From NCBI GenBank assembly GCA_903820735.1, contig CAIJIZ010000174.1, forward strand, positions 1 through 38,287: a DNA stretch of 38,287 nt, in the 5' to 3' direction. This document shows, one piece after another, positions 13,930 to 22,251 of the stretch; the first letter of the stretch is position 1, and every line of letters begins with the position of its first letter. The position numbers and the translations under genes are program-made. The stretch comes from an uncultured Pirellula sp. GTDB taxonomy: Bacteria > Planctomycetota > Planctomycetia > Pirellulales > Pirellulaceae. The notes beneath the pieces are model-generated. The model was given only the letters and a program-made list of their open reading frames with translations, did not search any database and had not been told where the DNA came from.

Positions 13930-15309
13930 TTACTGAACCGAGTCCAAAGCACTCGATTTCGAAATCAACGGGGGCCGTAAATACACCCAAGCTAATAAGA
14001 CAGCGCCGAACAAGATCCCTACGATACTTACCCATTGTGCAATGCTAAGACTCGTACCAAATTGCCCAGCCTCATCGACTCGAATGATCTCTTCTATAAA
14101 CCGCAACACTCCATAGACCATCCAACCCGACCCGAACACCAATCCGGGACGCGACGCCCATCCTTTGATGCTCGTACTCCAAAAACATAACAGGAAGCCT
14201 GTAATCGAAGCATAAATCTGAGATGGATGAACCGGCAAACTCTTCGTTGGCAATTCCGATACGACAAAACTTCCTCGCTCCGTTCGAACCACTCCCTCGA
14301 GCGGCGGTGCTCGGTGAGACCGTATCAGTGATGCTTGAGTCTCGACATCCACAGGCACGGCCCCGATACCAATGGCTCGCACGCGATCCCCAACTTGCAT
14401 CCCTTGCTTCTGTGCCCAACTTCCCGGATCAATCGAGGTGATTTCCAAGGTCTCTTCAGTCTCATCCCCTTCGGCTCCCTTACCGGATGACTTACCGGAT
14501 GACTTGGTATGCAATCCGAGCAATCTTCCTGTTTCAAACTGATCGATGTATGCCGGCGATCCTTTGGGAAACGCAATCGAAGGGGTCGCTGTCTCGCAAA
14601 TACCACCAAAGCAACAACCATTGAGCAAACAACCTAATCGGCCAAAAGCCAGTCCGATAAAAAATGCTGGTACGATTGCATCGAGCAGTAAGATAGGCTG
14701 TACTCGCCGCATAATCGCCCAACTGAGGATCCCGACTATCCCGCCGAGCACCGCGCCATAAACTACCAATCCACCTTCGGTGAATTGCAACGCGACCCAG
14801 AGTTTTTGCATAAGCGTCTCTCCATCGAGCTCGCTCCACTTCTGTACAACATAAAACAATCGCGCTCCGAACAACCCACCAATCACGGTGAATAACACCA
14901 AGCTAACAAACGACTCTTTCGGTACACCTAGCTGCAGAACACGACGGTAAGACAACACGGTCGCCGACAACACGCCGATCATCATCATCAATCCATAGCC
15001 GCGAACGGGTAATCCTATGACGATCTCGTCCGCAGTGCCCGCCGCTACCTTGGCTTCCACCATCGGTAAGACAACTCCCAAGATCGCGGCTCCCAACCCC
15101 CAGTTGAATACCTGATCCCACCATGGAGTGGACTCAACTGGCCTCTCGCTGCCCCCCGGGGTTCGCCCCGTCGATGCGAGCCCAAGCCGCGCATGAAGAA
15201 ACCACGTCACAGCGATGTAAACAAGAAGCCCGAGCATCCCCCAGCTTATCCAACCAAAAAGAGGTAATGGCCCAACTTGATGGGGCAGGTAGAACAATGT
15301 TTGACGCAT
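13930..15309 (-). CDS. lgt: Prolipoprotein diacylglyceryl transferase with a PDZ-like insertion
   Basis: Lgt transfers diacylglycerol to the lipobox cysteine of prolipoproteins in the inner membrane. The 459-residue protein is far longer than the usual 260-300. Lgt landmarks are present: a membrane core, ARLFYV near 149-154, GGLVVYGAVLGG (about 179-190), the signature GRLGCLLNGCCFG (223-235), HPSQIY (361-366) and GVLRFIEEIIR (400-410). Between the signature and HPSQIY lie about 120 residues instead of a short loop: a Gly/Ser/Lys linker (SSGKSSGKGAEGDETEET) and a PDZ-like stretch (LEITSIDPGSWAQKQGMQVGDRVRAIG). The linker includes a perfect 12-bp tandem duplication (14479-14502). The segment after residue 40 (STGRTPGGSERPVESTPWW) is another insertion. 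Confidence 0.93.
   Translation of the reverse strand: MRQTLFYLPHQVGPLPLFGWISWGMLGLLVYIAVTWFLHARLGLASTGRTPGGSERPVESTPWWDQVFNWGLGAAILGVVLPMVEAKVAAGTADEIVIGLPVRGYGLMMMIGVLSATVLSYRRVLQLGVPKESFVSLVLFTVIGGLFGARLFYVVQKWSELDGETLMQKLWVALQFTEGGLVVYGAVLGGIVGILSWAIMRRVQPILLLDAIVPAFFIGLAFGRLGCLLNGCCFGGICETATPSIAFPKGSPAYIDQFETGRLLGLHTKSSGKSSGKGAEGDETEETLEITSIDPGSWAQKQGMQVGDRVRAIGIGAVPVDVETQASLIRSHRAPPLEGVVRTERGSFVVSELPTKSLPVHPSQIYASITGFLLCFWSTSIKGWASRPGLVFGSGWMVYGVLRFIEEIIRVDEAGQFGTSLSIAQWVSIVGILFGAVLLAWVYLRPPLISKSSALDSVQ
14479..14502. repeat. 12-bp tandem duplication within lgt
   Basis: CTTACCGGATGA occurs twice in direct succession. On the coding (minus) strand it encodes SSGK-SSGK in the linker before the PDZ-like insertion, so it keeps the reading frame. 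Confidence 0.9.
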
Positions 15310-18786: not shown

Positions 18787-20034
18787 TCAGATTCGAACAA
18801 AAATTTTCTGCCTGTAAAGCCAATATAAAATCAACCAGAACACCGTCAAAACCAATCCGCCGTAAACCAGCGTTTCCACCGGCTGAGGAATGACTCGTTC
18901 GATCAACCAATCGAAATGTCGGCGGAAAGCGAGTTTCGTCCACTCTTCCATCGTCCAACTCATGGTGTAAGCCACAATCGAATTCGCACCGATCACACGG
19001 AAGAAGAAAGCCCAACGCGTTGCATTCCCGAAATCGCAAATCAGATACAGTAAAAACAACCAAGCGAAGCACAGCCCGCCGCTCCAAAGGGTCCACGTCG
19101 GCGTCCAGATCCGTTTGACGATAGGACACACTCCCAGAGCTTCCAAACCCCATGCAATCGACAAGCAAAAGACCGTTGCAGCGGCAAAGTAAGCGAAACG
19201 TCGCTTAAGGGTCCAATCCGCACGAAGCCACTCTCCGGCCAATAACCCCAACAGCATGGTTGCCAGAGTTGGGATAAAACTTAGGGTGCAGTAACCGCCG
19301 GATGAGTAAGCAAACGGTTCTTCACGAAAGAACAAATTCATCCACCAAACGTCAAATGCCCAAGCTGCATTGCTGTTTTTGTTCCAATGCGCCCCGAACC
19401 CTTCTTCGTGATGGGGCCAATTCGCTGGTACCCCCACCGATGCATAATCGAAGTCGGGTGAAGGGAGAGGACTCAATGCGAAAAACGCCCAATAACCCAC
19501 AAGTATCGCGCCAGCCCCTAAAGCAGACACGTACCATTTGCGACCTGCGAATAAGAACAAAAACGTGTACCCAAGCCCAATCTGGGTCAACGTGTCATCA
19601 AACGTAAAGTTTGTGTACATCTTTCCAAGACTACGCAAGAAAATCCCGAAGAAGACCAGGATTAAACTGCGGCCGATCGCGTGCATCAACATCGCACCAT
19701 ACGATTGGCCTTGCTCACTGCGTTTCGCAAACGAAAACGCTAAGGCCGCACCTACCAAGAACGAAAAGCCAGGTTGGATCAAGTCATGTAACGAGCAACC
19801 TCGCCAAGCCACATGCGATGTGTGAAAGACGATCGTATCGAGCAGGTTTTGCACGGTCGAAGACAATCGCCCGCGGTATCGCACTAAGCCGCTCCAGTGC
19901 AAGACCTCTGCAAGCATCAAAAACATCACCATGCCCCGATACACGTCGATACTCACGCAACGGCGAGAGGGTGGCTTGGTTGCTGCAAGATCGCGCAAGT
20001 CGACCGTCGAGGATTCCGCTGTGGTGCTCGTCAT
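18787..20034 (-). CDS. COG4299/DUF5009 membrane protein (HGSNAT-like acyltransferase family)
   Basis: A polytopic inner-membrane protein of about 415 residues from ATG 20034; the track start at 20118 would overlap the preceding gene. The motif SIDVYRGMVMFLMLAEVLH is the family hallmark (R-x-SIDxxRGxxxxxM), shared with heparan-alpha-glucosaminide N-acetyltransferases and NagX. About ten hydrophobic segments follow, with conserved PGFSFLVGAALAFS, DTLTQIGLGYTF and IGANSIVAYTMSW. Family members are thought to move acetyl groups across the membrane onto amino sugars, but many bacterial ones are uncharacterised, and planctomycetes carry several. It is 8 bases downstream of a small membrane-protein gene and probably in one operon with it and ogt. 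The substrate is not known. Confidence 0.85.
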   Translation of the reverse strand: MTSTTAESSTVDLRDLAATKPPSRRCVSIDVYRGMVMFLMLAEVLHWSGLVRYRGRLSSTVQNLLDTIVFHTSHVAWRGCSLHDLIQPGFSFLVGAALAFSFAKRSEQGQSYGAMLMHAIGRSLILVFFGIFLRSLGKMYTNFTFDDTLTQIGLGYTFLFLFAGRKWYVSALGAGAILVGYWAFFALSPLPSPDFDYASVGVPANWPHHEEGFGAHWNKNSNAAWAFDVWWMNLFFREEPFAYSSGGYCTLSFIPTLATMLLGLLAGEWLRADWTLKRRFAYFAAATVFCLSIAWGLEALGVCPIVKRIWTPTWTLWSGGLCFAWLFLLYLICDFGNATRWAFFFRVIGANSIVAYTMSWTMEEWTKLAFRRHFDWLIERVIPQPVETLVYGGLVLTVFWLILYWLYRQKIFVRI

Positions 20035-20042
20035 GGATAGTT

Positions 20043-20384
20043 TTATCTGTCGCGAAAGGTTGGTGAGATGAAGTCGATCAGCGGGCTGCCCGCCACCAAT
20101 AGAAACCCGAACAACCAAGGGACGTTATCCCAAAGCCCAGGAGGTAACAACAACGCAGCCGATAGTAACCCGAAAGCCGCCATCAAAAAGAATTCTGGTC
20201 GCATCGGACGCTGCCAAGCGGAAAACCAAAGCAATACCACCCAGAACGCCATCACCAAACCCACAGTTCCCATCGCCATCCATGCAAAGAGGATCAACAG
20301 GACTAAGTGGATCAGGTAATAGTACGTCAGTCGGAAGGAGAACCAACTCACGACGAGTTTAAGCAGGTTGTTTAAAGTTTTCAT
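20043..20384 (-). CDS. Small three-helix membrane protein
   Basis: A 113-residue protein starting at MKTLNNLLKL (ATG 20384); the longer track ORF start overlaps ogt and is not used. Hydrophobic segments near residues 23-40, 41-57 and 66-100 suggest three or four membrane helices, with a basic segment (WQRPMRPE) between them. It sits 13 bases after ogt and 8 bases before the COG4299 gene, so all three are likely cotranscribed. It may be a partner of the acyltransferase-like protein. No family is recognised. Confidence 0.75.
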   Translation of the reverse strand: MKTLNNLLKLVVSWFSFRLTYYYLIHLVLLILFAWMAMGTVGLVMAFWVVLLWFSAWQRPMRPEFFLMAAFGLLSAALLLPPGLWDNVPWLFGFLLVAGSPLIDFISPTFRDR

Positions 20385-21182: not shown

Positions 21183-21220
21183 AGTACGCTGCTACCACTG
21201 AAGTACGCTGCTACCACTGA
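21183..21220. repeat. 19-bp tandem duplication at the 3' end of the membrane-protein gene
   Basis: AGTACGCTGCTACCACTGA occurs twice in direct succession, followed by a partial third unit (GGCACGCTGTAC). The second copy spans the stop codon of the minus-strand gene ending at 21211, so the duplication lies mostly in its 3' region and leaves the protein end intact. Confidence 0.85.
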
Positions 21221-22209
21221 GGCACGCTGTACAAAACAACCCAATAAAATGCACCAATGAACGCGATAAGAGTTGCCAACCACCAAACGATTCGAAACGC
21301 GCTCCGGGGATTGGGGGAAACCATCGCAATGAGAAGATCAAGAAGCACATGAACGGTTGGCAAAAAACATAGCAACAGTAAAAACCAAATTGGTAATGGG
21401 CTCCAAGAATACACTTGAGAAACGCTCAAGAACGCTACTGAGGCGAAGCCAAGAGCATGGACGTGACTGATTAGAGGATGACCACTCCTGGAATCTTCCC
21501 GAGCACCTGTCATGGTCGCGATCAACGCTGTGACTCCACCTAAAGAAGCTAACACCAAAGCCCACTCACCCAACGATGCGTAGCCTTGCAATATGCACAC
21601 AGCGATGCAACCGAACTGAACGACAAGCGTCCAAAGAAACCTACCGCCACCGTTCTTGTGCAAGCTACAAGATACAGCAAAGCCATTGATAGACGTTGCA
21701 GCGAGAATCAACCATGGCGACCAAAAAATCATCGATGCTTTGTCTTCGTACCCAGCACCGCGGGGAAAAAGTATGTAAGCCATCGCGTACACAGCCATCG
21801 CGAACACAGCGATCGCTCCAATCGCTGCTAAAATTCCCCCCTGGCCAATTACTTTGCTACCGAGCGACTCGGGCTGTGGGCTGAGGGATTTGAATCGATT
21901 CCGCCAGATTACCCCGAAACACCAAGGGAATAAAAATCTGGACACCAAAAAAACTACTGGAAACACCCAGAGCATCCGCATCCAAGGTTCCTTCGGGGAC
22001 GAAACCAGAATTTCTCGGAGCCATCCGATAGAGCCACTTGCCGAACTGTTGGCGAATTCCGAAATCGCAAGCCCAAAAACAAACAAAGCGCCCCCGAAAA
22101 AGACTCCAACTCCTCGCGTCCTGAGTGTCAGCCATACCGCCAGGACCCCGAGCAGTACTGGTAGCAATACCCGCACGACTCCTACCTTTGCTTCGAATCC
22201 AATATCCAT
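21211..22209 (-). CDS. Polytopic membrane protein of unknown function
   Basis: A 332-residue protein from ATG 22209 (MDIGFEAKVGVV); the track start at 22248 is TTG. GGGGAAAG lies upstream. About nine or ten hydrophobic segments span the whole length (for example VLLPVLLGVLAVWL, ILAAIGAIAVFAMAVYAMAYIL, IWFLLLLCFLPTVHVLLDLLIAMV). Short charged loops separate them, and the HKNGGG and GAREDSRSGHP loops are the most polar. No transporter or enzyme signature is visible. It is divergent from the Fur-family gene across about 100-130 bases, so it may be under that regulator's control, but this is not shown. Confidence 0.75.
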   Translation of the reverse strand: MDIGFEAKVGVVRVLLPVLLGVLAVWLTLRTRGVGVFFGGALFVFGLAISEFANSSASGSIGWLREILVSSPKEPWMRMLWVFPVVFLVSRFLFPWCFGVIWRNRFKSLSPQPESLGSKVIGQGGILAAIGAIAVFAMAVYAMAYILFPRGAGYEDKASMIFWSPWLILAATSINGFAVSCSLHKNGGGRFLWTLVVQFGCIAVCILQGYASLGEWALVLASLGGVTALIATMTGAREDSRSGHPLISHVHALGFASVAFLSVSQVYSWSPLPIWFLLLLCFLPTVHVLLDLLIAMVSPNPRSAFRIVWWLATLIAFIGAFYWVVLYSVPQW

Positions 22210-22251
22210 CCTGACACTTTCCCCAGCTACAGTTCCCAAGAACCACAATTC

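Follow-up and report, generated by a model that had tools for sequence, protein, structure and literature searches.

A PDZ domain in the periplasmic head of a planctomycete prolipoprotein diacylglyceryl transferase

Introduction

Prolipoprotein diacylglyceryl transferase (Lgt) attaches the first lipid to lipoproteins by transferring diacylglycerol to the Cys of the lipobox. Nearly all bacteria have this enzyme, and for most Gram-negative species it is essential. The way in which the head recognizes the protein substrate is a long-standing question, and the head is also the most variable part of the enzyme (PMC13251419). In E. coli Lgt, arm-1 precedes TM1, arm-2 lies between TM2 and TM3, and the stretch that follows GRLGN forms the periplasmic head domain (PMC4728403). 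The Lgt signature and the essential residues have been described for the same enzyme (PMC4728403; the residues also in PMC13251419). Moreover, head swaps between species alter the function of Lgt in E. coli, and a contact between the head and the preprolipoprotein linker that follows the lipobox has been proposed (PMC13251419).

RseP and those site-2 proteases that have periplasmic PDZ domains are multi-pass membrane proteins with these domains in a periplasmic loop close to the membrane-embedded active site, and in RseP the PDZ tandem acts as a substrate filter, by size, with one of the grooves capped by a helix (PMC7728848). In the HtrA family (HtrA, DegP, DegQ and DegS), the PDZ domains are C-terminal to a soluble protease domain, outside any membrane enzyme.

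Here we describe an Lgt with a PDZ domain in its head, encoded in a stretch of 38,287 nucleotides from an uncultured Pirellula sp. (hereafter the window, meaning the whole stretch of DNA that was analysed). A PDZ domain in Lgt is not described in the open-access literature that we searched. The window protein resembles E. coli Lgt (PF01790; 5azb, 5azc) in its membrane body, its signature, its essential residues and the site of its head between TM4 and TM5. In contrast, the E. coli enzyme has only about 25 residues at this site and no PDZ domain, retains H103 and N146, and lacks the N-terminal hairpin of two TM helices seen here. The likeness to RseP lies in the architecture, a PDZ domain in a periplasmic loop of a multi-pass membrane enzyme near its active site. 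However, RseP is a metalloprotease unrelated to this lipid transferase, and it has two PDZ domains, placed between TM2 and TM3. With the HtrA family, the insert shares the fold and sequence similarity in the PDZ core. M. tuberculosis Lgt also has an extra segment, but that segment is long, C-terminal, of no known homology and outside the head, whereas the one in the window is in the head (PMC13251419).

Results

The Lgt of the window and its genome

The protein and the parts of it that belong to the enzyme body and its N-terminal extension are as follows.

13930..15309, minus strand: lgt, prolipoprotein diacylglyceryl transferase with a PDZ insert, 459 aa (open reading frame; Pfam LGT; Foldseek match to 5azb)
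15025..15282, minus strand: extra N-terminal hairpin with two TM helices (23-41 and 63-83), residues 10-95 (AF2 helices)
14602..14643, minus strand: Lgt signature GRLGCLLNGCCFGG, residues 223-236 (R224 is E. coli R143; C227 is at the N146 position)
13933..14232, minus strand: C-terminal Lgt body, residues 360-459 (Y399, R403, E407 and R410 are E. coli Y235, R239, E243 and R246)

The 459-residue open reading frame matches the Pfam LGT family (PF01790) with an E-value of 4.8e-45 and 154.2 bits against a cut-off of 24.9, over residues 98-441 (profile positions 6-240). E. coli Lgt (5azb) is the top Foldseek match of the full model (E=2.2e-9) and is also matched by sequence alignment. Conservation was read from an alignment of 47 Lgt proteins (A1), which is the basis of our column statistics and of the AF2 model. 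R224, G226 and G231 of the signature are invariant (47/47), as are the equivalents of R143, G145, R239, E243 and R246 (R224, G226, R403, E407 and R410), and the equivalents of Y235 (Y399, in at least 90% of the 47) and Y26 are nearly so. Two E. coli residues are replaced in the window protein, H103 by Tyr (Y184) and N146 by Cys (C227); yet membership in the Lgt family stands, because substitutions of both occur in other natural Lgt proteins and neither residue is universal in the family (PMC13251419). The same genome encodes LspA and an Lnt homologue, so the lipoprotein pathway looks complete. Judged by the conserved essential residues, the best explanation is that the window protein is the working Lgt of the organism.

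The genome encodes two more LGT-family proteins (G000:C723:13438-14088, L002, 254 aa; G000:C32:11808-12542, L003, 294 aa), both short and with no insert in the head. Short paralogues of this kind are widespread in the class (L142-L147, L208-L211) and keep a Cys-rich signature. The N-terminal hairpin sits between the first strand (MRQTLFxIP) and the arm-1/TM1 region (GLPIRGYG), giving nine predicted TM helices in total; it is present in the order of the window (Pirellulales) and in family f4, and is missing from f5, from f119-f121 and from most of f118. In one group of Pirellulaceae Lgt proteins, the HPxQ motif at the start of TM5, common in the others, is altered to LPAQ, YPTQ, RAAQ, QPAQ or WATQ (L070, L080, L084, L086, L088). 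Elsewhere in the window, two open reading frames are without a Pfam match at 1e-4 (18787-20118, minus strand, 443 aa; 21211-22248, minus strand, 345 aa).

The insert replaces a small helical part of the head

Two features delimit the insert.

14251..14529, minus strand: PDZ domain in the periplasmic head, residues 261-353, about 90 residues (Pfam, profile against PDB, AF2, Foldseek)
14212..14253, minus strand: LPTKSLPVHPSQIY, residues 353-366, point of return to the conserved Lgt body at TM5 (alignment A1)

The earlier note on this DNA had put about 120 residues between GRLGCLLNGCCFG and HPSQIY, and the gap is indeed about 125 residues long. It had also taken the region for a periplasmic arm, which has to be corrected, as the E. 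coli structure assigns this stretch to the periplasmic head (PMC4728403). In the alignment with 5azb, residue 248 of the window protein corresponds to E. coli residue 168 and residue 358 to residue 194, with about 109 residues between these anchors in the window protein versus about 25 in E. coli. The insert takes the place of E. coli residues about 169-193, a small helical part of the head, and members of the family that have no PDZ domain share the junction at LPTKSLPVHPSQIY. The location of the insert in the periplasmic head is well supported.

The insert has a PDZ fold

The segment SIDPGSWAQKQGMQVGDRVRAIG, residues 292-314, is a PDZ signature. In the window protein, Pfam PDZ_6 matches residues 289-314 with an E-value of 1.2e-4 when the whole protein is scanned. 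The insert by itself gives 7.3e-6, at 26.1 bits against a gathering cut-off of 27, a score that is borderline when taken alone. Although the insert of the window is borderline by itself, matches across the family make the PDZ assignment firm. At E<=0.01, PDZ_6 is found in 21 of the 47 proteins of A1 (best 1.6e-8), PDZ in 13 (best 1e-9) and PDZ_2 in 11 (best 1e-6), and among more distant relatives (f118-f121) PDZ_6 is found in all 16 (best 1.8e-12). None of the ten insert-less relatives used as controls has a PDZ_6 match. Moreover, a profile built from 28 inserts gives 430 matches to PDB sequences at E<=1, all of the listed ones being proteins with PDZ domains. The best are the PDZ tandem of the A. 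aeolicus RseP homologue (3wkl, 5.5e-13) and DegP (6.6e-13), both whole-sequence values that sum two PDZ repeats, the single-domain values being near 1e-5. The NHERF2 PDZ domain (2ocs) is matched over a single stretch with an E-value of 7.8e-9.

The structural models agree with the profiles. AF2, run on the 47 homologues of A1, gives a mean pLDDT of 88.7 and a pTM of 0.84, with the insert mostly above 87 outside a loop at about residues 271-290. Taking a PDZ domain as about six strands and two helices in order, the strands of the insert (266-270, 288-293, 309-317, 337-343 and 346-350) and its helices (298-301 and 322-330) come in PDZ order, which we infer to be the bacterial, circularly permuted form. 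Modelled in isolation, the insert adopts the same fold (pLDDT 86.7), and all 50 of the Foldseek matches listed for it are PDZ structures, with probabilities up to 0.99. Their E-values are modest (at least 0.015) and their TM-scores low (about 0.3-0.4); the long loop and the permutation are the probable reasons. Thus, family profiles, AF2 and Foldseek together bear out the PDZ-like domain that the earlier note had recognized within Lgt, structure prediction being the check it had named in advance, and the PDZ fold of the insert is well supported.

A conserved loop and a variable groove helix

Within the domain we distinguish four elements.

14515..14529, minus strand: GRLLG, residues 261-265, putative carboxylate-binding loop, possibly of the GLGF type (A1 columns)
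14449..14499, minus strand: Ser/Gly/Lys/Glu-rich loop inside the PDZ domain, residues 271-287 (A1 gaps; lowest pLDDT of the insert)
14380..14436, minus strand: SIDPGSWAQKQGMQVGDRV, residues 292-310, PDZ core motif (PDZ_6; S297, A299, G303 and G307 conserved)
14320..14346, minus strand: helix aB, residues 322-330 (AF2 helix; column entropy and alignment)

The most conserved part of the domain is G261-x-L-L-G265, at the position of the carboxylate-binding loop in PDZ domains, followed by the fold-defining PGSxAxxxGxxxG; the putative loop reads GxLLGI, and within the PDZ part no residue other than G265 is invariant in A1. The Ser/Gly/Lys run had been read as a linker. It turns out to be a loop within the domain, whose columns 274-285 are gaps in at least 40, and up to 46, of the 47 sequences: an enlarged loop between two PDZ strands, specific to the species of the window. 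Helix aB, which lines one side of the canonical PDZ groove, is highly variable in A1, and several lineages have a Pro-rich stretch instead. The peptide groove of the HtrA family is conserved, whereas that of the Lgt insert is variable. The PDZ part evolves faster than the rest of the enzyme, with 43% identity to a near relative (L035) versus 76% for the body. This fast divergence, together with a helix aB that is variable or missing in many lineages, makes a single conserved peptide motif or partner unlikely.

The insert is widespread and has been lost repeatedly

Our survey covered Planctomycetota. The insert is found throughout the family of the window, and 19 of the 20 families sampled in its order have at least one PDZ-bearing member. 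Outside the order it is present in at least four families (f118, f119, f120 and f121). This spread rules out both an insert unique to one strain, the result that the earlier note had set against its own proposal, and a trait strictly confined to one order. In every carrier the flanks are alike (FPxxSPP...G before, P.SL...P.Q after), pointing to a single insertion site.

Lgt proteins without the domain occur both outside and inside the order. Families f4 and f5, of the same class and outside the order, have no PDZ domain and a head stretch of about 37-70 residues, and no PDZ match was obtained beyond the class, where about 20 Lgt proteins of other Planctomycetota, picked mostly for long frames, were scanned. 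Within the order, the domain is absent from f107 (3/3 members examined) and from single members of f106 (L161) and f115 (L160). In such PDZ-less members the junction is closed cleanly, for example as SRGLLGEPPILAQRSLPVHPTQ, with GxLLG running into LPxxSLPV, and about 30-50 residues separate GCCYG from HPxQ.

On a tree of the Lgt body only, six changes of state are needed, three of which are losses nested in the order of the window (support for the order, 99). Holding all the PDZ lineages and the nested losses together is not rejected (AU p=0.49), and the PDZ-less f4 groups weakly with the order (support 79). The tree cannot separate one old gain with losses from two gains. At least three losses took place inside the order, with the Lgt body intact each time. 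A wide and old distribution of the insert is well supported.

Discussion

Our work indicates that a whole lineage has swapped part of the Lgt head for a kind of domain that usually serves to bind peptides. It is tempting to speculate, with not quite even confidence, that in this working Lgt the PDZ-bearing head takes hold of preprolipoproteins by their periplasmic part, or filters them there. The domain would stand above the catalytic cavity, at its periplasmic mouth, and would engage either the stretch behind the lipobox or the mature part of the incoming preprolipoprotein. Such engagement could position or filter substrates, as the periplasmic PDZ domains of RseP gate a buried active site, although the filter role documented for RseP (PMC7728848) extends to Lgt by analogy only. 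Catalysis would be left to the conserved Lgt body, with the PDZ domain as an accessory module; several lineages dropped the domain and kept the body, which shows that lipoprotein modification can go on without it. The effect of head swaps and the proposed contact between head and linker (PMC13251419) make it plausible that the PDZ domain recruits partners or substrates, as the earlier note had suggested. In a stronger form, possible if doubtful, the domain would be a grafted substrate reader. By binding the region that follows the lipobox, or by gauging its size, it would select the exported proteins that are turned into lipoproteins, or set the point of their export at which this happens. If so, it would be a selectivity module of Lgt without known precedent.

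A docking role is a rather unlikely alternative. Here the PDZ domain would bind some other protein of the envelope by a tail or loop in the periplasm, such as the Sec translocon, a loop of LspA or Lnt, or an outer-membrane sorting factor, and would couple Lgt to the next step while leaving the substrate untouched. C-termini and internal peptides are common ligands of PDZ domains, the glycine of the putative carboxylate-binding loop is invariant, and LspA and an Lnt homologue are encoded in the genome, all of which agrees with docking. However, LspA and Lnt probably have their C-termini in the cytoplasm, which makes C-terminal PDZ ligands on these enzymes, proposed as candidates to search for, a weak proposal. 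Nor is a partner found among the neighbouring genes (panC and purQ on one side of lgt, an FMN oxidoreductase on the other), and a single conserved partner peptide is hard to square with the fast divergence and the variability of helix aB.

It is also unlikely that the PDZ fold is a structural filler, namely a stable, ligand-free cap that stands in for the E. coli-type head and keeps the signature and the TM4-TM5 loop in order. Such a role would suit a head that varies more in size and sequence than any other part of Lgt (PMC13251419), a groove helix that is degenerate in many lineages, and a domain lost several times. In contrast, the PDZ-less members, with their far shorter heads, indicate that a cap this large is not needed, and the one residue that never varies in the PDZ part, G265, lies in the putative carboxylate-binding loop.

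We consider it very improbable that the domain senses folding or stress in the manner of DegS, by binding the C-termini of misfolded or mis-sorted proteins, and tunes Lgt activity up or down. The PDZ domains of DegP and DegQ are among the profile matches, and those of DegS and HtrA among the Foldseek matches, but this likeness is expected of any bacterial PDZ domain, and neither a protease nor a signalling partner is encoded nearby. Finally, a disordered or unrelated insert that resembles a PDZ core by chance is effectively ruled out, since against the sub-threshold Pfam score of the window and its weak Foldseek values stand the strong scores of many relatives, the silence of all ten insert-less controls, the high AF2 confidence and the Foldseek matches, every one listed being a PDZ structure.

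Returning to substrate engagement by the PDZ-bearing head, a PDZ domain in the presumed substrate-reading head makes the substrate choice of Lgt a testable question in one large planctomycete group. The natural losses, each with an intact enzyme body, are ready-made pairs with and without the domain for probing the role of the head. Moreover, the insert, being a soluble domain, can be produced by itself for a ligand search. In other planctomycete Lgt proteins we also observed long heads of 56-139 residues without a PDZ match (L041, 3001-4119; L013; L032), which suggests that the Lgt head has been elaborated in more than one way.
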